IMG/VR virus record: IMGVR_UViG_3300037504_000599
Span: 1 to 23,784 of that record
From: a virus
Reading direction: 5' to 3' (one strand)
DNA length: 23,784 nt
Part shown: piece after piece, positions 3,816 to 22,222 of the stretch
Numbering within the stretch: position 1 is the stretch's first letter
Layout: each line of letters opens with the position of its first letter
Notes under the pieces: generated by a model
Seen by the model: only the letters and a program-made list of their open reading frames with translations
Told to the model about the DNA's origin: nothing
Database searches by the model: none
Program-made: the position numbers and the translations under genes

Positions 3816-4318
3816 TTTACGAATTCGAAGCCGAAATCAAGGCGGCCGGGAAGAAGCACGGTATTGACCCGGAGCTGATCAACGCCGTGATCATGGCCGA
3901 GAGCGCCGGTGATCCGAACGCCATCCGGTTTGAATATCATAACTACCTCAGCGGGGCATACCATATCCGGCCCTATTCCAAGGTCAAACCAAAGATAAGC
4001 AGTCTTCAGACCGAGCGCATGGGGCAGTCCACCAGCTGGGGCCTAATGCAGGTCATGGGGTTCAATGCTCGGGGCCTGGGCTTCAGGCGGCGCTGGCTGG
4101 TGGAACTGTGCCGCCCTGATATCGGGATTGACCTGGGGTGCAAGATTTTGGCGCGGCTGCTGAAGAAATACGACATAGTCGAAGACGCCGTCAGCGCCTA
4201 TAACCAGGGATCGCCCCGCAAGCAGGAAAATGGAGAATACACCAATCAGGCCTATGTGGATCACGTCATGGGCCGTACAGGAGGGACGCTTGAGAGTCGC
4301 CATACTGACCGCCTTTGA
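3812..4318 (+). CDS. Phage endolysin, SLT-type lytic transglycosylase
   Basis: The product has 168 residues, with the catalytic Glu30 in the motif AVIMAESAGDPNA and the substrate-binding motif SWGLMQVMG at residues 75-83, followed by ARLLKKYDIVEDAVSAYNQG. These are hallmarks of soluble lytic transglycosylase (goose-lysozyme-like) domains that cleave the MurNAc-GlcNAc bond of peptidoglycan with 1,6-anhydro product formation. There is no signal peptide, so it likely depends on a holin. About 32 residues between the catalytic Glu and SWGLMQ form an insert longer than in compact SLT enzymes. The ATG overlaps the upstream TGA. The 3' end overlaps the first glycosyltransferase by 29 bases. Confidence 0.87.
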   Translation: MIYEFEAEIKAAGKKHGIDPELINAVIMAESAGDPNAIRFEYHNYLSGAYHIRPYSKVKPKISSLQTERMGQSTSWGLMQVMGFNARGLGFRRRWLVELCRPDIGIDLGCKILARLLKKYDIVEDAVSAYNQGSPRKQENGEYTNQAYVDHVMGRTGGTLESRHTDRL

Positions 4319-5549
4319 TGAACTGAATCCCGGCTATTCCCTGACCGGGATCGTCCGGGACCAATGCACCATGCTCCGTAAATACGGGCACAACCCGGCC
4401 TTGTTCGTGCGCAAGGGCTTCCGCGAGCCGGACGCGCCCGTCGAGGCCGATATTCGTCCGGTCATGCCCAATGCGCCCTTGACCGACTATCAACGCGCGC
4501 AGGACATTTCGGAAGACCACGGCGACACCGTGGAAGAAACGGCGGCCGTGCTGGTCAAGGAACTGGCCGAATTCGACGCGGTTTTGACCCATGACTTGAT
4601 TTTTACCGGCTGGAATTTGCCCTATGCCCTGGCCATTCGGGCGGCGTCGCCGCATTTGCCGCGCCTCAAGTGGCTTCATTGGATTCATTCCATCCCTTCC
4701 GGCCGCAAGGACTGGTGGGATCTTCGAGCCTACGGCCCCAATCACCGCCTTGTCTTCCCCAACAAAACCGACGCGCTTTATGCCGCCGAGGCCTACGGCG
4801 TGGGGCTGGACCGAGTCGAGGCCATACCCCACATCAAGGACATCCGGACATGGTTCGGTTTCGGCGAGGAGACCCGGGCCTTTATCGACCGTTACCCCGG
4901 CCTGATGTCGGCGGATGTGGTGCAAATCCTACCGGCGTCGGCGGATCGGCTGTATTATAAGCGGGTGGACGATGTGATCCGCTTTTTCGGGGCATTCAAG
5001 CAGATGGGCCTTTCGGTCTGTTTGGTGGTGGCCAATCAGTGGGCCACGGGCAAGCAACGCAAGGAGGATGTGGACGAATACAAGACCATCGCCCGGCGGC
5101 AGGGGTTGAACGACGGCGATGTGATCTTCACGTCGGATTTCGGCCCGGCGTATGAAGCCGGCCTCCCGGGGCGCATGATCCGGGAGTTGTTCCTCTGTTC
5201 CAACCTGTTCATTTTCCCCACGCACCACGAATCCTTCGGCCTGGTCATCCCGGAGGCGGCCTTGTCCGGCGTCTTGCAAGTGCATAACCGGTCCTTGCCC
5301 ATGCAACGGGAAGTGGCCGGGAACACCGGGCTTTATTGGGATTTCGGCAGCTTTTGTCAGGAAATGAGGGGGAGCCGGGATTCGCGCTGGTATCGGGCCG
5401 TGGCCGCGCATATTCTCGGGCAAATGCGGCGGGAGCAATCCATCCTGGCCAAGACATACGCCCGGCAACGCTACAACTACGACGCCGTGTACCGGGGCTA
5501 TTACGAGCCTTTGTTGACTGACCCGGCGCAAGGAAGCGAGGCGGCCTGA
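4290..5549 (+). CDS. GT-B glycosyltransferase (GT1/GT4-like)
   Basis: The start is placed at TTG 4290, with AGGAGGG at 4279-4285 just upstream, because the protein then begins with a GT-B first strand (RVAILTAFDE). The product has 419 residues. The C-terminal Rossmann half carries the GT4-type nucleotide-sugar site FPTHHESFGLVIPEAALSG at about residues 312-330, where the Glu pair contacts the donor. It should transfer a sugar from a nucleotide donor in the cytoplasm; donor and acceptor are not visible. It is the first gene of the sugar cassette, and its 29-base overlap with the endolysin gene implies shared transcription and translational coupling with lysis genes. No membrane segments are seen. 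Confidence 0.82.
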   Translation: MRVAILTAFDELNPGYSLTGIVRDQCTMLRKYGHNPALFVRKGFREPDAPVEADIRPVMPNAPLTDYQRAQDISEDHGDTVEETAAVLVKELAEFDAVLTHDLIFTGWNLPYALAIRAASPHLPRLKWLHWIHSIPSGRKDWWDLRAYGPNHRLVFPNKTDALYAAEAYGVGLDRVEAIPHIKDIRTWFGFGEETRAFIDRYPGLMSADVVQILPASADRLYYKRVDDVIRFFGAFKQMGLSVCLVVANQWATGKQRKEDVDEYKTIARRQGLNDGDVIFTSDFGPAYEAGLPGRMIRELFLCSNLFIFPTHHESFGLVIPEAALSGVLQVHNRSLPMQREVAGNTGLYWDFGSFCQEMRGSRDSRWYRAVAAHILGQMRREQSILAKTYARQRYNYDAVYRGYYEPLLTDPAQGSEAA

Positions 5550-5914
5550 TGTATACCAAGAGCCAAGTATCAAAAATAACCGGCCTCACACCACGACAGG
5601 TGACGTTCTACACCGAAGAAGGACTTGTTCATCCCCTTAATATGGGGGCCGGACCGGGTATACCACGGCTTTATTCGAAAGAAGACGTTCAAGACCTTGT
5701 GCTGACAAGGCTTCTCGTGAAATACGGGACGCGGCTCGACACCATCAAAACCCTACTGGACAAACTCAAGTCGATGGGAATCAAGGGGGGAATCATCGTG
5801 CTCGTCGACGACACCGACATATACCGCCTCGACGATTTCCAATGGGACGACTATGCGGGGGCCATTGTGGTGAACATGACAAAACTGTTCGAACCCATCG
5901 AAAGCGAGGCCTGA
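5549..5914 (+). CDS. MerR-like HTH protein inside the sugar cassette
   Basis: This is a 121-residue protein whose ATG overlaps the upstream TGA. Residues 1-70 match a MerR-type winged HTH: KSQVSKITGLTPRQVTFYTE, then EGLVHP, then RLYSKEDVQDL. A short helix (IKTLLDKLKSMGI) leads to a compact beta-rich tail (IIVLVDDTDIYRLDDF) in place of a metal-binding or large ligand domain. It may regulate the cassette or another phage promoter, but no MerR-type promoter with a long spacer is visible nearby. The bases around its stop resemble those around its start junction (AAGCGAGGC then CTGATG), suggesting insertion between the glycosyltransferase and the radical SAM gene. Confidence 0.72.
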   Translation: MYTKSQVSKITGLTPRQVTFYTEEGLVHPLNMGAGPGIPRLYSKEDVQDLVLTRLLVKYGTRLDTIKTLLDKLKSMGIKGGIIVLVDDTDIYRLDDFQWDDYAGAIVVNMTKLFEPIESEA

Positions 5915-6837
5915 TGTTCAAGAAGGCTCACTTTTACCTGGACAAGATCGACGCCCTGACGGCCGGGCGATACACGCCCCCGGTGACGGTGGAGATCGAC
6001 CCGAGCAACCTCTGTCAGCTGAACTGCGAGTTTTGCATGTACCGGGATTATCTCAGGGAGACCGGGACGTCGCGCTTGTCAGCCACCGCGTATGAACGGC
6101 TTCTGGCTGATATTAAGGGTATCGTCAAGTCCATCACCTTTACCGGCGGCGGCGAACCGCTGACCCACCCGCATTTCAACGAGATGGCCGATATGGCCTA
6201 CCGCGACGGGTTTGAGATGGGCCTGATCACCAACGGCGTCAACCTGGATTGGCTGGACCATCCGGAGCGTTTCAGGTTCATCCGGGTATCGCTGGACGCA
6301 GGGGACCGGGAGACATACCGGGCGGTGAAGGGCGCGGACCGTTTCGACCGGGTGGTCGACAACCTCATCCGGACGGCCAAGCGGGCGCAATGCCTGGGCA
6401 TCAGCTTTGTGGTCACGGAAACCAACGTGGACACCCGGCAAAAAGCGGCCGAACTGGCCGACGAGATCGGCCTGGCCTATGTGCAATTCAAACCGGCGAT
6501 CTATCCCGGCGGCAAATACGACCGATGGGAAAAGGTGTCGAACGTCCGGGCCATTCATACCGGGCGCCACGCGCCGAGCCCGACCGCGTGCCGTATCGCC
6601 GGCCTGGTGGGCATCATCGGGGCCGACGCCACGGTGTATTACTGCTGCCAGCATCGCGGAGACCCGGATTACGCCCTGGGCAGCCTGACCGAGGAAACGT
6701 TCACGGACATCTGGCGGAGGCGTCCCGCATTCATCCCGAATTTACGGTCATGCCCGCCGTGCCGCTATTCCGGATATGCCGACGAATACCGGCAAGCCAA
6801 GGAGGATATGACGGTCCAGCACCGGTATTTTCTATGA
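5914..6837 (+). CDS. Radical SAM enzyme with C-terminal Cys-rich (SPASM/twitch-like) region
   Basis: This is a 307-residue protein with the radical SAM 4Fe-4S motif C34-x3-C38-x2-C41 (NLCQLNCEFCMY), the GGGEP SAM-binding motif at 78-82, and further cysteines in the C-terminal part (TACRIAG, YYCCQH, RSCPPCRY). The latter could bind an auxiliary cluster as in SPASM or twitch proteins. These enzymes form a 5'-deoxyadenosyl radical to modify peptides, sugars or cofactors. In a glycosyltransferase cassette it may make or modify an unusual sugar, or a peptide to be glycosylated. The substrate cannot be read from sequence. The ATG overlaps the MerR-like gene stop. The family call is firm; the role is inferred. 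Confidence 0.88.
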   Translation: MFKKAHFYLDKIDALTAGRYTPPVTVEIDPSNLCQLNCEFCMYRDYLRETGTSRLSATAYERLLADIKGIVKSITFTGGGEPLTHPHFNEMADMAYRDGFEMGLITNGVNLDWLDHPERFRFIRVSLDAGDRETYRAVKGADRFDRVVDNLIRTAKRAQCLGISFVVTETNVDTRQKAAELADEIGLAYVQFKPAIYPGGKYDRWEKVSNVRAIHTGRHAPSPTACRIAGLVGIIGADATVYYCCQHRGDPDYALGSLTEETFTDIWRRRPAFIPNLRSCPPCRYSGYADEYRQAKEDMTVQHRYFL

Positions 6838-7730
6838 GATGGCTCATCCTTAACCGCTATGATCCGCGAAACACCGTGCTTTACATGACCACGTTCGTGG
6901 ACTACCTGAAACGCGCAGGCCACATGGTCTACGGCCCCGGGCATGACGGCTTCGAAGCGAACCGGCCCCTCGGCGACGTCATTAATTACAGCAAATGCGA
7001 TGCGGTCCTGGCCGTGGACAAGCGCCAAGACTGGCACAACGGCTTGCGGCGGGCCGGCCTCCCCAAGGCCTGGCTGATGGCCGATTATTTTCCGGCCAAG
7101 AATCAAGTCGTCCGCTATAACCGCGTCATCGAGCGGGACCGCTACGATCTGCTTTTGGCGCAAACCGCCCCGGAATACGCCAGGCTGTCCGAGGACAAGC
7201 GGCGCTACATCCCCATGAGCGTGGATCCGGATTATTTCCAAGACATGAGGCTTGATCGCGACATCGACATCGCCGCGCCCTGGAACGCGCTCCCCAAATA
7301 CTACCCGCTCCGGCCGGTGATACGAAAACGGCTCCACCAGGGCGCATGGACTGCCCATACCGATTATGTGTTTTACCGCGGGTATGTCAAGCTGTTGAAT
7401 CGATCCAAACTGTTCGTCAATTCCGGGACCGTATTTCTGAACATTCAGTCCCGCTACACCGAGGCGGCGGCGTGCGGGTGCCTGATGCTGACGGACGATT
7501 CCGCGCCGGACGACTTCGAGCGACAGGGATGGATTGACGGCCTGAACATGGTCATCTGGCGCGGCCTGAACGATCTGACGGACAAAATCGAATATTACCT
7601 GGCCCACGAGGCGGAGCGGGTGCATATCGCGGCCAATGCCCAAAAAATGGTCTTGCGGCGATACACTCACGCCCACACCGAAGCGCGGATAAAAGAGGCG
7701 CTAGTTTCCTTGGATGGGAGCAGAAATTAA
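6834..7730 (+). CDS. GT-B glycosyltransferase (Glyco_trans_1_2 / CgeB-like)
   Basis: This is a 298-residue protein from an ATG overlapping the previous TGA. The N-terminal strand (RWLILNRYDPRNTV) and the C-terminal region with VFLNIQSRYTEAAACGCLML, the aspartate-rich DDSAPDDFE and the final helix (AAAQK-type, seen as AANAQKMVLRRYTHAHTEAR) match the PF13524-type GT-B domain often annotated as CgeB-like. It should be a soluble cytoplasmic sugar transferase. Its last 30 bases form the first copy of the 48-bp repeat array that follows, read in another frame. The TAA shares its final A with the next ATG. Confidence 0.78.
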   Translation: MRWLILNRYDPRNTVLYMTTFVDYLKRAGHMVYGPGHDGFEANRPLGDVINYSKCDAVLAVDKRQDWHNGLRRAGLPKAWLMADYFPAKNQVVRYNRVIERDRYDLLLAQTAPEYARLSEDKRRYIPMSVDPDYFQDMRLDRDIDIAAPWNALPKYYPLRPVIRKRLHQGAWTAHTDYVFYRGYVKLLNRSKLFVNSGTVFLNIQSRYTEAAACGCLMLTDDSAPDDFERQGWIDGLNMVIWRGLNDLTDKIEYYLAHEAERVHIAANAQKMVLRRYTHAHTEARIKEALVSLDGSRN

Positions 7731-8033
7731 TGACGGATATAGTGGTGCTTAGTTTGTGTCCCCAATGGCAGAAAATAGCGCCCGTTATAGTTTGCGCTAA
7801 TTTCCGCCCCGGCCGACAGAAGCGAGGCGCGCTTATAGTTTGCACTAATTTGTGTGCATGCGAAGAGAAATTAGTCGAGCTTATAGTCGGCGTTAATTTC
7901 CATCCTCGGTGGCAGAAAATAGCGGAGCTAATACCGCGTGCTAATTTCCATCCTCGGTGGCAGAAACCAAGCCGAACTATAAGCGGCGGTAATTTGAGCG
8001 GCCGTCAACACAAAATAGCGAGGACTAATTGAG
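7698..8033 (+). repeat. Tandem array of seven imperfect 48-bp repeats
   Basis: Seven units of exactly 48 bases begin at 7698, 7746, 7794, 7842, 7890, 7938 and 7986 with no indels. Most conserved are C-TAATTT (bases 4-10 of each unit), CAGAAA-TAG (about 24-33) and TATAGT near the end. CTAATTT and AAATTAG are inverted, so each unit can form a hairpin: unit 3 has eight perfect pairs (ACTAATTT with AAATTAGT around a 16-base loop) and other units keep partial pairing with different bases. Units 4 and 5 share an identical CTCGGTGGCAGAAA core. The first unit lies over the end of the upstream glycosyltransferase and the last reaches the start of the next. Confidence 0.85.
7730..8032 (+). CDS. Six-fold 16-residue repeat protein, unknown function
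   Basis: This 100-residue reading frame consists of MTDI plus exactly six 16-residue repeats, with approximate consensus VxxNFxPxWQKIAELI. Asn4 of the repeat is kept in five of six copies, the Lys in five or six, and the hydrophobic final position in most. It starts at an ATG sharing a base with the upstream TAA and ends at a TGA overlapping the next gene's TTG, so it fits the translational coupling of the cassette. The 48-base period guarantees an open frame in multiples, so the frame might be incidental to a DNA or RNA repeat. No known family is recognised. If translated it could be a small solenoid or a set of short amphipathic units. Confidence 0.5.
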   Translation: MTDIVVLSLCPQWQKIAPVIVCANFRPGRQKRGALIVCTNLCACEEKLVELIVGVNFHPRWQKIAELIPRANFHPRWQKPSRTISGGNLSGRQHKIARTN

Positions 8034-9000
8034 GCTTTTATTTTGTTATTCCCGGATGGACCGGACATTGTCGCCGGAGCACTTCATGGCCGATGGATAT
8101 TTTTACCTGGTCCGGCGCATGACCGAGTCAGGCATTATTGACGGATGCGACGTGATTCTGGACGGCGGCGATCCGGACGAGCGGGAACTGTGCCCGGGCG
8201 TGACCTGGCGGGTGGTCCATAGCCTGGAATCGGTCCGCCATTGGCCCGGCCCGCTCATCTGGGTGCGCGGCGGATTCAAGCCGACCGACGTCTATCAGCA
8301 CTGGAAGGACGCAGGCAAACGGATCATTTTTTACGCGGCCAATACCGGCCGGGAACGCTGGCCGTTCTGGTCGGACCTCCTGGACGACCTGACCGGGCGG
8401 GATTATGTCGACCACCGGGGCGTCCGGTGTTGGAATTTTCGGAAGCCGATCAACGAGGAGATATTCTATTTCAAGTCGACCGAGCCGCAATACGATTTGT
8501 GCATTGGCGGATCCATGATCACCGACAAGAAGGGCCAGCACCGAGTGATGGGGGCCGTGGCCCGGGATATGCCCGCGCTGAAGTGCGTCATGCCGGGCGG
8601 CATCCGGCACGGCGTCCAATCCAGTAAAATAATGGACGTGGCCCGAAAACACCGACTGGCCATCCATTGCCCCGGCATGGTGTCACGGCGACGCATGGCC
8701 GATGTCTACCGGTCAGCCCGGGTCATGGTGCACGCAGGCAGCGGCCAGCACGACCGGAGCGTGTTGGAGGCACTGGCGTGCGGCCGTCCGGTGGTGATCG
8801 ATCAACCACAATATCACCCACCCTGGTTGCGCGATGCCTCCGAGAAGGACGGCGTCTTCATTACCAACGGCGATTTGACCGGGACCATCTTGCGTGCCCT
8901 GGGGGCCGACGTGAAGCCGGCGGATGCGGCCCTGTTCCGGCGCAGGGAATCAGGAATGGATGAGGTGATATTGCCTTTTTGGCGGGAGCTTTTATCATGA
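8029..9000 (+). CDS. GT-B-like glycosyltransferase
   Basis: The TTG at 8029, preceded by GCGAGG at 8018-8023, is preferred because it gives the typical first beta strand (RLLFCYSRMDRT); the next ATG at 8047 would remove it. The 323-residue product ends with a GT-B donor-binding region: VMVHAGSGQHDRSVLEALAC followed by GRPVVIDQPQYHPPWL. This resembles GT1/GT4 families with an S-x-L-E-A-L-A-C-G core. Soluble and cytoplasmic. It is the third GT-B enzyme in the cassette. Acceptor and donor are unknown. The gene start overlaps the repeat-protein stop (TTGA), and the stop overlaps the methyltransferase ATG. Confidence 0.75.
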   Translation: MRLLFCYSRMDRTLSPEHFMADGYFYLVRRMTESGIIDGCDVILDGGDPDERELCPGVTWRVVHSLESVRHWPGPLIWVRGGFKPTDVYQHWKDAGKRIIFYAANTGRERWPFWSDLLDDLTGRDYVDHRGVRCWNFRKPINEEIFYFKSTEPQYDLCIGGSMITDKKGQHRVMGAVARDMPALKCVMPGGIRHGVQSSKIMDVARKHRLAIHCPGMVSRRRMADVYRSARVMVHAGSGQHDRSVLEALACGRPVVIDQPQYHPPWLRDASEKDGVFITNGDLTGTILRALGADVKPADAALFRRRESGMDEVILPFWRELLS

Positions 9001-9506
9001 ACGAACACCGCTATATCATTCAAGAACTGGCCCGGGCCTTTCGGCCTCGGGTTTACGTCGAGATCGGGGCGCACTACGGCGACACTTTCAATTTAGTGTC
9101 CATGCATGCCGAGCGGTCCATCGCCGTGGATCCGGCCCCGCGCTATATCAAGACGCGGTCGGGCGTCGAAGTGTTCCGGGGAACGTCCCGGGCGTTCGCT
9201 CACGGCTGGGCCGAGCCGATCGATATGCTGTTCATCGACGGCGACCACGCCAAGGATGCGGTAATGGCCGATTTTAATAAGATCGGACGTCATGTCCGCG
9301 AAGATACCGGCCTGATCCTGATCCATGACACGCACCCTGTCCGGCCGGAGTTGACATCGCCGGAGGCGTGCCACGATTCCTGGAGACTCCCGCGCATCAT
9401 AAAGGTCGATTACTCCTTGGAGTTTGTCACGTTGCCCGGCCCGACGTGCGGCTTGACTATCGTTCGCAAGACCACCGGCGGAGGAAAACCGACATGGATG
9501 AACTGA
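8997..9506 (+). CDS. Class I SAM-dependent methyltransferase (Methyltransf_24-like)
   Basis: This is a 169-residue protein from the ATG overlapping the upstream TGA. The SAM-binding motif I is VEIGAHYG (residues 21-28), followed by an acidic strand end (SIAVDPAP). The motif IDMLFIDGDHAKDAVMADF, then GLILIHDTHP, is typical of the PF13578 type, in which the Asp and His residues bind a metal used in O-methylation of sugars or small molecules. In this cassette it probably methylates a sugar hydroxyl. It overlaps the second methyltransferase gene by 13 bases. The family is clear; the substrate is inferred from context. Confidence 0.82.
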   Translation: MNEHRYIIQELARAFRPRVYVEIGAHYGDTFNLVSMHAERSIAVDPAPRYIKTRSGVEVFRGTSRAFAHGWAEPIDMLFIDGDHAKDAVMADFNKIGRHVREDTGLILIHDTHPVRPELTSPEACHDSWRLPRIIKVDYSLEFVTLPGPTCGLTIVRKTTGGGKPTWMN

Positions 9507-10078
9507 GCCTGGAACGACTCTACCCGCCGCGGTTCTTCGCCCGCAGGTATAAACTGAACTGGCGCGCGCCCATCGTGGTGGAGGCGATACAGCGGATTTT
9601 CCAGCCGGACAGCGTGCTGGACGTGGGGTGCGCCACCGGGGACCTGGTGGCCGAATGGGACCGTCGGGGCGTCATGGCCTTCGGCCTGGAGGGATCGACG
9701 GCGGCCTTGGACTACCTGGAGACGAAGCAGGTGTTTTTTTACGACCTAAAATTACCGGTACAACTGGATGTCCGCTTCGACCTGGCCACGTGCTTTGAAG
9801 TGCTGGAACACATCGAACCGGAAGGCGCCGACCAACTGGTAGAGAACCTGGTCGGCTTTTCGGATCGCTTGCTTTTGAGCGCGGCTCCTCCGGGGCAAGG
9901 CGGCCACCACCATGTCAACTGCAAGCCGCTGGAATACTGGCTGGAGCGATTCGCGCGGCATGATTATCTGTCGAAAAAGCGGCCTGTCGAAGCGATCAAG
10001 GCGGCCTGGGCCCCCTGGCGGAACAAGCCCGGGATCACGGCGTTTTACCACAACCTGTTTTACGTGGAGCGTGTATGA
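9494..10078 (+). CDS. Class I SAM-dependent methyltransferase (Methyltransf_23-like)
   Basis: This is a 194-residue protein with motif I VLDVGCATGD at residues 41-50, an acidic loop (GLEGS), and motif IV-like FDLATCFEVLEHIEPEGAD, followed by LLLSAAPPGQGGHHHVN. These are the features of the PF13489 type, common in O-antigen and glycan clusters and often acting on sugars or lipid precursors. The ATG at 9494 lies inside the preceding methyltransferase gene. With two different methyltransferases in one cassette, the final glycan is probably multiply methylated. Soluble; substrate unknown. Confidence 0.82.
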   Translation: MDELSLERLYPPRFFARRYKLNWRAPIVVEAIQRIFQPDSVLDVGCATGDLVAEWDRRGVMAFGLEGSTAALDYLETKQVFFYDLKLPVQLDVRFDLATCFEVLEHIEPEGADQLVENLVGFSDRLLLSAAPPGQGGHHHVNCKPLEYWLERFARHDYLSKKRPVEAIKAAWAPWRNKPGITAFYHNLFYVERV

Positions 10079-10803
10079 ATATTGCCCTGAGCATGACCGC
10101 GTGCCGCCGGCCTGAAATCATGGAGCGGACCGTGCGCAGTTTCGGGCGGTATATGCCGGAGCTGATAAAGGCAACCGCGATTGTGAATATTGACCCGGCG
10201 GGCGGAGACTTCGGCGACGGTGAAACGTGCGCCCATATCATCCGGAGCAGCTTTCGTCTCCAGAGGTATTTTCAGCCCCATGCCCCGAGTTTCGCCAAGG
10301 CATTCATCAAGGTCTGGTCGGTCGCTTCCGTCGCTGATTACGTCTTTCACCTGGAGGACGACTGGGAACTGTTGCGGCCGGTCAGCCTGGACCGCATGGT
10401 CGAGGTCCTGGAGGCCGAACCGGATCTGGCGGTGCTTCGGCTCCCATGGAAAGCGGCAGGCGACACGGCGGCCAAACAATGGAAGGTGTGGTTCCCCTGG
10501 AACGGAACCTACTTCGAGTGCCCTCCGAACGCGCGGCGGGAGGTCGGCTTTTGCGGCCATCCGTCCTTGATTCGAGGCGAATTTGTGCGGCAAGCGGTGA
10601 ACGTGTTGGACCCGTCGAGCAACCCGGAAAAGCAATTCCATCACGGGCCGGCGGCTGAAATCGTGGATCAATGGCGGTTCGGCGTTTGGGGACCGCCCAA
10701 CAGCGGACCGGCGGTCAAGGACATCGGCCGGGAGTGGATGGTTAAAAACGGATACAAAAAGGCAGGCAACAAGGCCTTTTTCGACACATGGGAGCGAGTA
10801 TAA
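10075..10803 (+). CDS. Putative GT-A-like glycosyltransferase
   Basis: This is a 242-residue protein from an ATG overlapping the upstream TGA. The N-terminus (NIALSMTACRRPEIMERTVRS) matches the opening strand and loop of GT-A enzymes that bind a nucleotide sugar. VFHLEDDWELL carries an acidic E-D-D triad at the expected position of a DXD metal site. Later, GFCGHPSLIRGEFVR and EIVDQWRFG resemble acceptor-side loops. It has no membrane helix. It is followed with no gap by another GT-A gene, and the two may act on one glycan. The family assignment is moderately confident; specificity is unknown. Confidence 0.68.
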   Translation: MNIALSMTACRRPEIMERTVRSFGRYMPELIKATAIVNIDPAGGDFGDGETCAHIIRSSFRLQRYFQPHAPSFAKAFIKVWSVASVADYVFHLEDDWELLRPVSLDRMVEVLEAEPDLAVLRLPWKAAGDTAAKQWKVWFPWNGTYFECPPNARREVGFCGHPSLIRGEFVRQAVNVLDPSSNPEKQFHHGPAAEIVDQWRFGVWGPPNSGPAVKDIGREWMVKNGYKKAGNKAFFDTWERV

Positions 10804-11778
10804 ATGGATTTATCGGTCGTCATACCCTTTGCCGGGGAATATCCCCTGGCCCTGACCACGGTTGCGTCGGTCTATGAGGAACTGCGGGACCGGGGCATTG
10901 AATTTGAAGTGATCGCCGTGGATAACGATTGTCCGGAATGGCGGGCGCAATTGCAAAAGAACGCCTCCCCGGAAGGCGGGGCCCTGGTCAATCAGGTATC
11001 CGGCGACGGCCGGTCGCGCAGCCGGGAAGCGTTGGAGGCGGCGGCCAAAAGCCATTCATGGCTGAAGGTGGTCGAATACACGGAGCGTCTGAGCCACTGG
11101 CAGGCGAAAAACGTCGGCGTCCGCGCCTCCTCCGGAAAATACCTCTGGTTTTGCGACGCCCACGTCATCGTTCCCCGGGACAATCTCTGGGAGATGCTGA
11201 GCTGGTTCCACTTCGAGAATCACGGTCGGGGTTCGGTGCATTTCGCCGACACCTACAAACTGCTCGAAGCAAAGCCGAATCAATACAAACTGAAAAACGA
11301 ACTGGACAAGGGCTTCATCGGCTATGCCCTGAGCGGCTGGCACCCGAAGCCGGACCCCTACGAGGTCCCGGCGGCGTCGAGTTGCGGCATGCTGACCACT
11401 CGGGCCTTGTGGGACCGTCTGGGCGGCTGGCCGCAAAAACACAGCTATTCCGGCGGCGAGCATTTCTGGAATTTCGTCCTGGCCACGCTGGGCGAGCCCA
11501 AATACCTATGGACGCGCGGCTTCCTCCGACACCACGGCGCGCCCCGGGATTATCACTGGACCCTGGACGGCTATATCTGGAACCAGTGCGCGGCCATGTA
11601 TATGATCGGCGGCCAAGCCCTGGCCCTGAAATACATTGATCACCGCAAGGGGAGGCCCGAGGCGCTGGCCGGAATCCTGAGCGACGTCTTGTCCGAATGC
11701 TTTGAACAGCGGCAGGCGATCAAAAAACAACAAACCATATCGATCGAGGAGTGGGTGAAACAATGGCAAAATGGTTGA
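10804..11778 (+). CDS. GT2/GT27-like family glycosyltransferase
   Basis: This is a 324-residue protein. The N-terminus LSVVIPFAGEYPLALTTVAS is a classical GT2 start. The metal site appears as FCDAHVIV, a DxH rather than DXD, as found in polypeptide GalNAc-transferase-like enzymes. SSCGMLTTRALWDRLGGW followed by SGGEHFWNFVLA resembles their GG-E acceptor segment. This suggests, weakly, transfer of a HexNAc-type sugar, perhaps to a protein. The ATG follows the upstream TAA directly. The gene's end overlaps the epimerase by 16 bases. The GT2 call is strong; the GT27 resemblance is an inference. Confidence 0.78.
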   Translation: MDLSVVIPFAGEYPLALTTVASVYEELRDRGIEFEVIAVDNDCPEWRAQLQKNASPEGGALVNQVSGDGRSRSREALEAAAKSHSWLKVVEYTERLSHWQAKNVGVRASSGKYLWFCDAHVIVPRDNLWEMLSWFHFENHGRGSVHFADTYKLLEAKPNQYKLKNELDKGFIGYALSGWHPKPDPYEVPAASSCGMLTTRALWDRLGGWPQKHSYSGGEHFWNFVLATLGEPKYLWTRGFLRHHGAPRDYHWTLDGYIWNQCAAMYMIGGQALALKYIDHRKGRPEALAGILSDVLSECFEQRQAIKKQQTISIEEWVKQWQNG

Positions 11779-12707
11779 TTACCGGCGGCGCGGGATTTAT
11801 CGGCAAGGCCACGGCGGCGGAATTGATTCGCCGGGGCGAGGACGTCCGCGTCTTGGACAATCTTTCCACGTCGTCCGGCGATGCGGTCATGGAACTATAT
11901 CAGGCCGGGAAATATGAATTTATCCTGGGGGATATCCGAAAGCAATCCGATTGCAAGCGGGCTGTGGACGGCGTGGATTACGTGGTCCATCTGGCCGCGT
12001 TGGGGTCGGTGCCGCGGTCCATGCAAACCCCGGACCAAACCAACGACCACAACGTCGCAGGCACGCTGAATGTTTTTATTGCCGCCCGGGACGCCGGCGT
12101 CAAAGGCATGGCCTCGGCATCCTCCAGCAGCATTTACGGCGGATTGCGTGACTTCCAGCGCGAGGAACAACCGCCCTTCCCCATGTCGCCCTATGCGGCG
12201 TCCAAGCTGGCCGGGGAGATGTACGCCCGTATATTCGCCGAATCGTTCGGCCTTCCGGTGGTCTCGCTTCGCTATTTCAATGTATACGGACCGGGGCAAC
12301 GCGCGGACGGGCCGTATTGCGCGGTGATTCCGATCTGGATACGTTGCCTCCTTAACGGCGAATCGCCGACCGTTCACGGGACCGGAGAGCAGGCCCGGGA
12401 TTTCACCTTCATCGACGACGTGGTGGATGCCAATATTTTGGCGGCGACCCATGCCAAGCCCTCATCCGGCGAGGCCTTCAACGTCGGAGCAGGCGGTCGA
12501 ACTTCGCTCCTTGAAATTCACGAGCATTTGTCGAACATCATCGGGCGTCTACCCCTGATGTATGCCGAGCGACGTCCCGGCGACGTGGATTCGACCTGGT
12601 CGCGGATCAAAAAGATGGAGCACGCGTTCGGCTGGACGCCGAAAACGGCCATTTACGAGGGGTTGCTGAAGACGGTGGTTTATTACCGCTCGCAGCGGGC
12701 GGCGTGA
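11763..12707 (+). CDS. NAD-dependent UDP-sugar epimerase/dehydratase (extended SDR, GalE/WbpP-like)
   Basis: This is a 314-residue protein from the ATG at 11763, with GAGGAG at 11746-11751; an upstream GTG at 11751 would overlap that site. It shows the NAD-binding motif GGAGFIG (8-14), Asp32 for the adenosine ribose, the serine run SSSS at 120-123, and the catalytic Y144-x3-K148 (SPYAASK). RYFNVYGPGQ follows, and then GTGEQARDFTFIDDVVDA. This closely fits UDP-hexose or UDP-HexNAc 4-epimerases, which would supply a nucleotide sugar for the cassette's transferases. It is the last gene before the attachment region. The C4-epimerase activity is likely; the exact sugar is not determined. Confidence 0.87.
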   Translation: MAKWLITGGAGFIGKATAAELIRRGEDVRVLDNLSTSSGDAVMELYQAGKYEFILGDIRKQSDCKRAVDGVDYVVHLAALGSVPRSMQTPDQTNDHNVAGTLNVFIAARDAGVKGMASASSSSIYGGLRDFQREEQPPFPMSPYAASKLAGEMYARIFAESFGLPVVSLRYFNVYGPGQRADGPYCAVIPIWIRCLLNGESPTVHGTGEQARDFTFIDDVVDANILAATHAKPSSGEAFNVGAGGRTSLLEIHEHLSNIIGRLPLMYAERRPGDVDSTWSRIKKMEHAFGWTPKTAIYEGLLKTVVYYRSQRAA

Positions 12708-12861: not shown

Positions 12862-12954
12862 AGATGGTCTATATTATATATGGCCTGTCATCCGCTTAAT
12901 TGCTCGATGTTGGTGTGTATATTAGTCTAATATAGTCCATTAGAATTCATCAAT

Positions 12955-12977
12955 GGTGTACCAAAATGGTGTACCAA
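12955..12977 (+). repeat. Integrase arm-type site pair, right arm
   Basis: Two direct copies of GGTGTACCA at 12955-12963 and 12968-12976, identical over 23 bases to the left-arm block and in the same orientation. The block ends three bases before the integrase stop codon, so the arm sits just beyond the end of the integrase gene. Confidence 0.65.
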
Positions 12978-12979
12978 AA

Positions 12980-14071
12980 TCAATCGTCAAATTTCGGGAC
13001 TTTAATCCCATCAATTATTCTCCGCCTGGTGTCGTCAATCAGATGATAATAGACCGACAGCGTGGTATTTGTCGTGGAATGCCCAAGTGCTTCGGAGACG
13101 GATTTTATATCTGCTCCCGGAGACGACAACACGTTCGAGGCGAATTTGTGCCTCAGATCGTAAAGCCGAATTCGGCGAGGTTGATCCTTGGCTCTTGCCT
13201 TTAGCTGGCCGGTGTAGGTGGTCTCACGCGAACGCTCTTGATATATCCCGGCCCTGACCAGCGTGTTTACCCAGGCACGCTTGACGGATTTAACCGGACG
13301 CCCCTCATATTCAACCAAATAGGTTTGCTCACGCCTCTGCTTAATTTGGCTCATGAATTCAGGCGTGCAATACAATAATGATCGGTCGCTATGCGTTTTT
13401 GGGCGGTCGATCCATATCCCGGCGCGTTCAAAATCCACGTCCGCCAACTTGATCTTGAACAATTCGGTCGGTCCCGGACGGACGCCCAGGTTCAGCATAC
13501 AAATGATGATCCAGCGGATATGTTCCGGCGCGGTCTGCCAAATTTTTAAAACTTCATCATCGGTAATGAGCGGCGGGGCCTTCCCTTCTCTCTTTTTATC
13601 CGGTCGAAACCTGGCAAACGGATTTGATTGAATTAAATCGTTATCGGTTGCCCATTGACAAATAGCCCGGCAATATGACCGATATCTATTTCGTGTAGCT
13701 AATTTAAGGCCGCGTTTGATTAACAGCGTGTCAAGGTTTGATAGGTCTTGCATGGACAATCTGTTACATGGCGTTTTGCCGAAAACCTTAATGATATGCT
13801 TGTTTATGGCATAGCCTATAGTATCGCGTGATTTTGGCGAGATGGGTTTTTGCGTTAAATATTTTTGAGCGATCTCAAGAAATGTCGACTGGTCGGCGGT
13901 ACGAACTTCCGGCACTCCGAATTTCTTGGCGCGCTTCTTGTGGAAATCGAATTCTTGAGCGGCCAATTCGGCAGCGGCCCCCCGCCCGAAATAACGGCGG
14001 TGTTGCTTTCGCTCGCCGGGCTCCCGCCATACCGCGTACCAGCGCCCATCCTTGGTGCATCCGACGCTCAT
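12980..14071 (-). CDS. int: Tyrosine-recombinase integrase
   Basis: This is a 363-residue phage integrase. The N-terminal 50 residues form an arm-binding-like domain (GRWYAVWREPGERK). A core-binding SAM-like domain spans about 60-155. The catalytic domain shows Arg198 (GVRPGPTE), a box II with Tyr304 in place of the usual His and Arg307 (LYDLRHKFAS), His331 (ALGHS) and the nucleophile Tyr341 (SVYYHL). The Tyr-for-His change is common in phage integrases. It should catalyse recombination between attP, directly downstream of its stop, and a host tRNA-Arg gene. It is transcribed leftward from the repressor side, 2 bases after the zinc-ribbon gene. Confidence 0.94.
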   Translation of the reverse strand: MSVGCTKDGRWYAVWREPGERKQHRRYFGRGAAAELAAQEFDFHKKRAKKFGVPEVRTADQSTFLEIAQKYLTQKPISPKSRDTIGYAINKHIIKVFGKTPCNRLSMQDLSNLDTLLIKRGLKLATRNRYRSYCRAICQWATDNDLIQSNPFARFRPDKKREGKAPPLITDDEVLKIWQTAPEHIRWIIICMLNLGVRPGPTELFKIKLADVDFERAGIWIDRPKTHSDRSLLYCTPEFMSQIKQRREQTYLVEYEGRPVKSVKRAWVNTLVRAGIYQERSRETTYTGQLKARAKDQPRRIRLYDLRHKFASNVLSSPGADIKSVSEALGHSTTNTTLSVYYHLIDDTRRRIIDGIKVPKFDD

Positions 14072-16980: not shown

Positions 16981-17100
16981 GGCATGGCATGCGGCGCGGC
17001 AAGGCCTGGCGAGGCTGGGCCGGGCGTGGCTGGGCCGGGCGTGGCGAGGCGGGGCGAGGCTTGGCCGGGCGGGGCCTGGCGCGGCGAGGCAAGGCAAGGC
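16981..17100. repeat. NNGGC pentanucleotide array 1
   Basis: After two GGCAT units, 22 consecutive 5-base units of the form NNGGC run from 16991 to 17100 without an indel, with the GGC invariant and the NN dinucleotide freely varied. The array starts at the base after an upstream stop codon and ends 30 bases before the ATG at 17131, so it fills the leader of that gene. Random NN with fixed GGC argues for protein recognition or periodic structure, not a simple slippage tract. Confidence 0.9.
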
Positions 17101-17130
17101 AAAGGATTTAAACCAAAACAAGGAGAACGT

Positions 17131-17694
17131 ATGTTTGAAGCGCACGCGGATATAGAATCGTTAAGTCCCTATAGTCAAAGCAAGGTCATCACGACAAGAA
17201 AGAAAGACAAGGAGACACACGAAGACCATGAAAAGCGGGTGTGGCGCGAGCGATTACACACAAACGAAAAGGGGGAGGTATTCATCCCCCCCACGGCATT
17301 TAAAAACAACCTGTCGGAAGCGGCCAAGTATTTGAGTATACAAATCCCGGGCAAGGGAAAGGCGACGTATACCAAGCACTTTGAGGCCGGCATCCTCGTT
17401 GTTGACAGCCTCATATTACCAATACCCCGAGACGATGTCCAGGGCGAATGGGTGTATGTCCCATCCGACGGCCGTCGCGGCGGCACGACGCGGGTGTGGA
17501 AATGCTTCCCTCTGATCCCCGAATGGGCGGGGACCGTCCGTTATTTAATCTTCGACGAAACGATCACCTATGACGTGTTTAGATATCACCTGGAGCAAGC
17601 CGGGCAGTTTATCGGGCTCGGGCGGTTCCGGCCGCGAAACAACGGCTACTATGGCCGGTTCAAGGTCAATGGTGTGGAATGGAGCGAGCGATGA
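17131..17694 (+). CDS. Conserved-looking phage early protein, possible RAMP/Cas7-like fold
   Basis: This is a 187-residue protein from ATG 17131, with AAGGAG at 17120-17125. No family name is certain. Visible motifs are RVWRERLHTNEKGEVFIPP, then TAFKNNLSEAAKYL, KGKATYTKHFEAG, and near the end a glycine/arginine-rich segment FIGLGRFRPRNNGYYGRF. The 'IPP-x-AFKN' strand-helix and the Gly-rich C-terminal loop are reminiscent of RAMP (Cas7-like) RNA-binding proteins, but this rests on motif impression only. It overlaps the next gene (ATGA). The pair is flanked by the two NNGGC arrays, and it may bind its own leader or phage RNA or DNA. Function unknown. Confidence 0.75.
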   Translation: MFEAHADIESLSPYSQSKVITTRKKDKETHEDHEKRVWRERLHTNEKGEVFIPPTAFKNNLSEAAKYLSIQIPGKGKATYTKHFEAGILVVDSLILPIPRDDVQGEWVYVPSDGRRGGTTRVWKCFPLIPEWAGTVRYLIFDETITYDVFRYHLEQAGQFIGLGRFRPRNNGYYGRFKVNGVEWSER

Positions 17695-21343: not shown

Positions 21344-22222
21344 GTGGACGGCTGGATAAAACTACACCGGAAAATCATCCACTCGGCTGTGTATCAGGAC
21401 CCGAACCTGTTCCGCACATGGGTGACGTGCCTATTGCTGGCCAACCACAAGCCGAAACAGGTCAAGGTGGATGGGGTGACCGTGCCGATTCTTGTTGGGC
21501 GCGGCGAGTTTGTGACCGGCCGATATGAGTTCTACGCCACCATGTTCCCTAAGAAGCGCAAACAAACTAAGCCGTCACCTATCACTGTGTGGCGATGGCT
21601 AAAAGCGCTCGAGGAGCTCGGAAATCTGTACATCAACTCGAACAACAAATATTCAATCATAAAAATAGTAAATTACGACACTTACCAGTCTATGCCAGAT
21701 GACAATGAACAGCAAAATGAACAAGTCGTGAACAACAGACGAACAACAGATGATCAGCTCGTGATCACAACCAAGAATGTACAAGAAGTACAAGAAGTAC
21801 AAGAAGTACAAGAAGAAGAAGTATGTCCGGAGCGATTCGACTCCGAACCATCACCTACCGAAATTCTTCAACCGCCCATCCTGACCATTCCACTGGTGGA
21901 TAAAACCGAGCACCCGATCACGGAGGATGACTTGGCCGAATGGGTCGAGGCCTACCCGGCCGTGGACGTGGAGCAGGAGTTGCGCAATATCCGCCAGTGG
22001 AACCTCGCCAACCCCACGCGCCGGAAAACGCCGAGGGGCGTCCGGCGCCATATCGTCCAGTGGTTGGCCAAGGAACAAGACAAGGGCGGCAACAGCCGGG
22101 AAAGCCCGAGCAACGGCAACGGGCGGAAAACGTTTCGGGAGATGGAAGAGGAGAAACGGCAAGAACAATTGCAGCGGCTCATAGAGCAAGGGCCGCCGGA
22201 GGGCAACAAATGGCGGAATTGA
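21344..22222 (+). CDS. Phage replication initiator (O-like / DnaD-like N-terminus)
   Basis: This is a 292-residue protein from GTG 21344 after GGAGG. The N-terminus (GWIKLHRKIIHSAVYQDP, RTWVTCLLLANH, then SPITVWRWLKALEELG) is a winged-helix replication-initiator domain of the phage replisome-organiser type. The AT-rich centre encodes a hydrophilic linker with VQE repeats and the 9-bp DNA repeats described separately. The C-terminus (DLAEWVEAYPAVDVEQELRN, then TPRGVRRHIVQWLAKEQD) resembles the segment that contacts a helicase or loader in such proteins. It likely binds the origin within its own gene. It overlaps the loader-like gene by 13 bases. Confidence 0.82.
   Translation: MDGWIKLHRKIIHSAVYQDPNLFRTWVTCLLLANHKPKQVKVDGVTVPILVGRGEFVTGRYEFYATMFPKKRKQTKPSPITVWRWLKALEELGNLYINSNNKYSIIKIVNYDTYQSMPDDNEQQNEQVVNNRRTTDDQLVITTKNVQEVQEVQEVQEEEVCPERFDSEPSPTEILQPPILTIPLVDKTEHPITEDDLAEWVEAYPAVDVEQELRNIRQWNLANPTRRKTPRGVRRHIVQWLAKEQDKGGNSRESPSNGNGRKTFREMEEEKRQEQLQRLIEQGPPEGNKWRN
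21779..21814 (+). repeat. Four 9-bp iterons inside the replication-initiator gene
   Basis: GTACAAGAA is repeated four times without interruption in the AT-rich middle of the replication-initiator gene. A degenerate GAACAACAGA pair (about 21730-21750) and GTGATCAC lie just upstream. In lambda the origin iterons sit in the middle of gene O, so this is a candidate phage origin. It also encodes VQE repeats, so coding microsatellite growth is an alternative. Confidence 0.5.

Follow-up and report, generated by a model that had tools for sequence, protein, structure and literature searches.

A base-exact 48-bp lattice of palindromic boxes recurs in otherwise different phages and may be a platform of symmetric DNA sites

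The window considered here, i.e. the whole 23,784-bp stretch of an IMG/VR virus record, belongs to a temperate phage that encodes an integrase, a repressor and an antirepressor. Between its lysis gene and the integrase gene (4230-12707) lie glycosyltransferases, a MerR-like regulator, a radical SAM/SPASM protein, methyltransferases and a nucleotide-sugar epimerase, a cassette that is likely to be a lysogenic-conversion surface-modification locus. Within this cassette, the gap between two glycosyltransferase genes, GT1 and GT2, is filled by an array of 48-bp repeats (Table 1). Elsewhere in the window, a perfect 13-bp tandem repeat (AATGGTGTACCAA, 2.2 copies) at 12952-12980, at the 3′ end of the tyrosine integrase gene (12980-14071, minus strand), is a candidate attP or integrase arm site. 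A GC-rich 15-bp repeat at 17003-17090 gives the ORF at 16984-17694 a GEAGPGVA-like low-complexity N-terminus, and a 9-bp in-frame repeat at 21772-21815 encodes (VQE)n within a DnaD-like helicase loader gene.

The array (7700-8032) is real and lies far beyond chance: with up to three mismatches allowed, the two-unit consensus matches the window eight times, compared to 0.00 matches expected from shuffled sequence. Tandem Repeats Finder detected only its best part because most of the units are only ~65% alike. The starts of the successive units step by exactly 48 bp, which bears out the phasing reported in a first-pass annotation of this DNA, although the seven units counted there resolve into six full units with partial ends. 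The same annotation pointed to inverted AAATTAG/CTAATTT half-sites about every 24 bp and to a recurring TATAGT, and it was right that these phased features matter. The half-sites are indeed present, but they are not evenly spaced (measured from box end to box start, 16 bp within a unit and 14 bp between units), while TATAGT is exact in four units and a wider 18-mer has five matches. At the left end of the array, the linker has the 14 bp seen in 16 of the 17 arrays analysed; at the right end, the gap is the 4 bp of a shorter one-dyad form discussed below. This right end also carries a Shine-Dalgarno-like GAGGA and the TTG start of GT2. The array supplies the last codons of GT1 and the start of GT2 merely through its position.

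Table 1. Features of the array and its flanking genes in the window
Feature	Position	Strand	Remarks
Upstream glycosyltransferase GT1 (Glyco_trans_1_2)	6837-7730	+	Pfam match stops just short of the array, at residue 282 of 297
Array, left end	7700-7722		Right half-box GCTAGTTTC (7700-7708) and 14-bp linker; inside the GT1 3′ end
Unit 1	7723-7770		Holds the GT1 stop TAA and the ATG of the 100-aa ORF
Unit 2	7771-7818		Matches the unit consensus perfectly
Unit 3	7819-7866		Left box decayed to GAAGCGAGG
Unit 4	7867-7914		Matches the unit consensus perfectly
Unit 5	7915-7962		Core TAATAC
Unit 6	7963-8010		Core ACTATAA
Array, right end (truncated unit)	8011-8032		Short one-dyad form CAAAATAGC-GAGG-ACTAATTGA
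Fortuitous 100-aa ORF through the array	7730-8032	+	Begins in the GT1 stop (TAATG); no Pfam match
Downstream glycosyltransferase GT2 (Glyco_trans_1_4)	8029-9000	+	Pfam match; start codon within the last box

The 100-aa open frame had suggested a new peptide of 16-residue repeats, and in another phage contig (G001; L137:5307-5891, minus strand) the array likewise lies in frame within a longer ORF, whose 194 codons begin with a signal-peptide-like stretch and include a CxxCH motif near the end. However, with the boxes held fixed, shuffling of the spacers leaves the window frame open in 39% of trials (P = 0.39), meaning that the ORF exists but is expected from the box layout. Differences at codon positions 1, 2 and 3 number 114, 97 and 104 in the window and 123, 110 and 122 in G001, i.e. 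there is no excess at position 3, and the 194-aa ORF shows no protein constraint by this measure. The open frame with synonymous-biased variation that characterises a repeat protein is not what the arrays present: in most of them the reading frame is interrupted, stops occur in all frames, and relatives contain units of 58, 47 and 49 bp (+10, −1 and +1), lengths that are not divisible by three. Such indels and internal stops in relatives are what the first-pass annotation had named as refuting a protein role, and translation of the array as a repeat peptide is exceedingly improbable.

The same element was found in ~18 otherwise different phage or prophage contigs. Arrays were collected by a single-unit pattern scan, blastn and further pattern scans and were re-read on fuller contigs; as the IMG/VR scans require exact matches, the abundance is underestimated. 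The carriers comprise IMG/VR phages, phage-like contigs from Nitrosomonas and Gimesia bins, and an isolate, Bacteroides phage BU183P (BU183P1 and BU183P2); array-bearing contigs span 33 to 58% GC. Across 84,980 species genomes, six contigs contain the exact two-unit pattern; L091 and L092, two of the six, have just one chance-like match each, in AT-rich DNA, and a further genome-contig match (L094) is a lone site at most. Another 396 genomes from the phylum of Nitrosomonas yielded no array, and blastn of the arrays gave no convincing match in plasmids or in E. coli and only BU183P1 and BU183P2 as convincing matches among phages. Matches in Vibrio cover 34 bp within a tail gene and look like chance. 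All-against-all blastp of the array-bearing phages, many of whose contigs are fragments, found no protein cluster shared by the whole set apart from the array ORF itself, and relatives of both flanking glycosyltransferases, sought for an empty junction, were absent from IMG/VR and the phage records. A description of the element was not found in the open-access literature, and no described family fits the array. The earlier idea that an expanding junction is creating a gene de novo does not hold for a widespread phage repeat that was not made at the glycosyltransferase junction.

In one IMG/VR record (IMGVR_UViG_3300006802_000066; L192 and L195), the contig is broken at both ends within an array of 58-bp units, and the BU183P1 and BU183P2 records likewise break inside the array. 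Near-identical arrays thus seem to break assemblies, and the element is therefore probably under-sampled.

From 118 units, we obtained the consensus SAAAWTARY-N4-RYTATARY-N4-RYTAWTTTS-TG-N10-CA, which is palindromic about TATA and consists of the boxes with their 4-bp spacers, up to RYTAWTTTS, plus a 14-bp linker. Per-column conservation is ~0 bits in the spacers and reaches 2.0 bits in the boxes, the latter being inflated because the units were gathered by consensus searches. Box identity amounts to 68% between arrays of different phages and to 63-87% within one array; spacer identity between arrays is 27%, equal to the chance level, and within one array the spacers are mostly near the level expected from composition. 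Spacing of the units is fixed to the base, at 48 and sometimes 58 bp (+10, one helical turn), with 47 and 49 bp also occurring. Within units, gaps of 16 bp were counted 87 times (in 16 arrays), gaps of 4 bp, the shorter one-dyad form of the element, 23 times (in six arrays) and gaps of 26 bp (+10) four times, while linkers measure 14 bp in 89 cases, 15 bp in nine and 24 bp (+10) in two. These distances are free of the search bias, as the single-unit scan fixed one unit only and BU183P was found by blastn; since neither fixed a between-unit distance, the 48-bp period does not stem from the search. Taken together, conserved boxes, near-chance spacers and quantised spacing argue that selection holds the boxes and their distances but not the rest, and increments close to one helical turn suggest that the DNA would be read in its double-stranded form.

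This bears on another suggestion of the first-pass annotation, namely that the array is a tandem RNA hairpin element, and on the related idea of hairpins in single-stranded DNA. The box pairs are complementary in the consensus, and RNA folding of the window gives z values of about −2.6 to −2.8. Nevertheless, permutation within arrays revealed no covariation in the within-unit, half-unit or between-unit register: pairing is no commoner than chance, all three registers show uncompensated loss of pairs, and W-W and S-S mismatches are as frequent as independent variation predicts. Rfam contains no match to the array either, and we regard a hairpin element as highly improbable. ToxI and AntiQ, the repeat arrays of type III antitoxin RNAs, resemble the array in the tandem arrangement and similar length of their repeats and in their phage-related contexts, but the conserved base pairing of such structured RNAs is not a constraint here, and no toxin gene was recognised among the flanking genes examined. 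An enzyme with no need for full pairing could, however, also recognise the dyads in single-stranded form, which would count against a double-stranded platform.

BU183P carries the array as a clean insertion of 488 bp that separates terS from terL, whereas in BU1-1, BU241P2 and C2_18_80S2P it is absent and the terL ATG lies within a few bases of the terS stop. BU3-1 and EMB1/EMB2 have a LamG-domain gene or an unnamed gene at this position. Given that these relatives are 91-94% identical in the terminase region and that the remainder of BU183P has only small unique patches, the BU183P array is accessory and brings no gene.

Among the roughly 18 lineages, ~7 have the array next to terS and/or terL, and a further two have it next to other head genes. 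It occupies the terS-terL gap in G004/G010, G014/G015/G018, G003 and BU183P, lies between terL and the portal gene in G017, beside terS in G012a and near terL in G009; in other cases it is found between glycosyltransferase genes (the window), close to a helicase gene (G016) or surrounded by unknown genes. The genes on its flanks are those for terminase, portal and glycosyltransferase as well as unknown ones. Its enrichment beside terminase genes is suggestive only, because several lineages are related and because terminase genes are over-represented on short viral contigs through the way these are selected. A pac- or cos-like packaging site read by the terminase would account for this neighbourhood. 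However, such a site is required and present in all close relatives, yet BU1-1, BU241P2 and C2_18 carry the same terminase genes without the array, and a glycosyltransferase cassette and the vicinity of a helicase gene harbour arrays as well, making a packaging site quite unlikely. In the related phages G014, G018 and G015 (L145, L146 and L164), the array lies in the terS 3′ end between imperfect direct repeats of 20 bp (ATGTTAGTRCGGCTYC), which may represent an insertion duplication. Copy number at one site is six in G014, five in G018 and two in G015.

Several arrays can also occur per genome, with two in G017 and three in the Nitrosomonas MAG G012, while G010 has a second single unit distant from its array. 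This, the location at intergenic junctions and the presence or absence between near relatives would suit a selfish, dispersing palindromic phage repeat akin to REP/BIME, mobilised in trans by a putative recombinase whose requirements the boxes would reflect. The array shares with REP/BIME regularly spaced palindromic motifs in alternating orientation at extragenic junctions, and REP/BIME elements are described as binding sites for several proteins (PMC2817692). Several differences render such an origin unlikely. Within arrays, boxes and spacing are maintained next to spacers of near-chance identity, which argues for selection in place rather than recent copying. The element is rare in bacterial genomes and has few copies per genome instead of many copies scattered over a bacterial chromosome, its carriers are unrelated phages with unrelated spacers, and its palindrome forms no conserved hairpin, given the tolerated mismatches and the lack of covariation. 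Moreover, the REP-type Y1 (RAYT) transposase (PF01797) was absent from 17 array-bearing records, many of them fragments, in a search with a positive control.

A further likeness concerns promoters of T7-family single-subunit RNA polymerases. In each half-unit (AAWTARYN4RYTAWAR), an A-rich box and a TATA box stand at exactly the spacing of T3 and K11 promoters; 14 of the 14 constrained positions match T3, 13 match K11, 12 SP6 and 11 T7. Promoters of this family combine AT box, specificity bases, TATA box and a +1 G in one orientation. In the array, the AT and TATA boxes match, but the specificity bases (−10 to −7) are random, the short dyads lack the −1/+1 bases, and there are two antiparallel overlapping copies, a symmetry that promoters leave unexplained. 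A phage-type RNA polymerase was not found in the contigs, albeit with a positive control that was itself silent. An array of such promoter-like sites, perhaps as a decoy against competing T7-like phages, is very unlikely.

The array is not CRISPR-like either, as previously noted: its boxes are degenerate, variable bases lie inside the repeat and the linkers have 14 bp, as opposed to near-identical repeats, unique spacers of constant length and cas genes. Iteron and operator arrays of plasmids and phages are likewise tandem, evenly spaced protein sites, but the consensus of the present array is the same across unrelated phages, and no initiator or partition gene is seen alongside. Possible likeness to the RuvC consensus (WTTS) and to FNR/CprK-type dyads was judged too weak and set aside.

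The element occurs in unrelated phages, is present or absent between near-identical relatives and changes its copy number in one-unit steps. With moderate confidence, we favour the view that it is a non-coding accessory phage element, i.e. a tandem platform of symmetric double-stranded DNA sites for protein. The elementary site would be the dyad SAAAWTARY-NNNN-RYTAWTTTS; in the usual 48-bp unit, two such dyads would be fused via a shared RYTATARY core, with units repeating at the 14-bp linker. One or more proteins with two-fold symmetry would read the boxes and need them on a fixed face of the helix, leaving the sequence between the boxes free to vary. We infer that a protein binds the array and that the array acts by gathering this putative protein, be it as a decoy that titrates a DNA-binding protein of the host or of a competitor, or as a platform for DNA architecture or packaging. 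No HU/IHF-type protein encoded by the array-bearing phages was found. A more specific version is possible but doubtful: here, the array would belong to a new class of accessory phage DNA that serves as a tandem decoy or scaffold with one consensus across unrelated phages, captures a widely conserved DNA-binding protein of the host or of a rival phage, and is exchanged among tailed phages without any gene.

The same base-exact lattice occurs in a Bacteroides phage, in Nitrosomonas- and Gimesia-binned contigs and in other phages that share nothing else, suggesting that something common to these infections must read it. The comparison of BU183P, which has the array, with BU241P2 and BU1-1, which do not, makes this idea directly testable in Bacteroides uniformis. 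Identifying the protein that reads the array would reveal either a shared host target of these phages or a conflict between phages.
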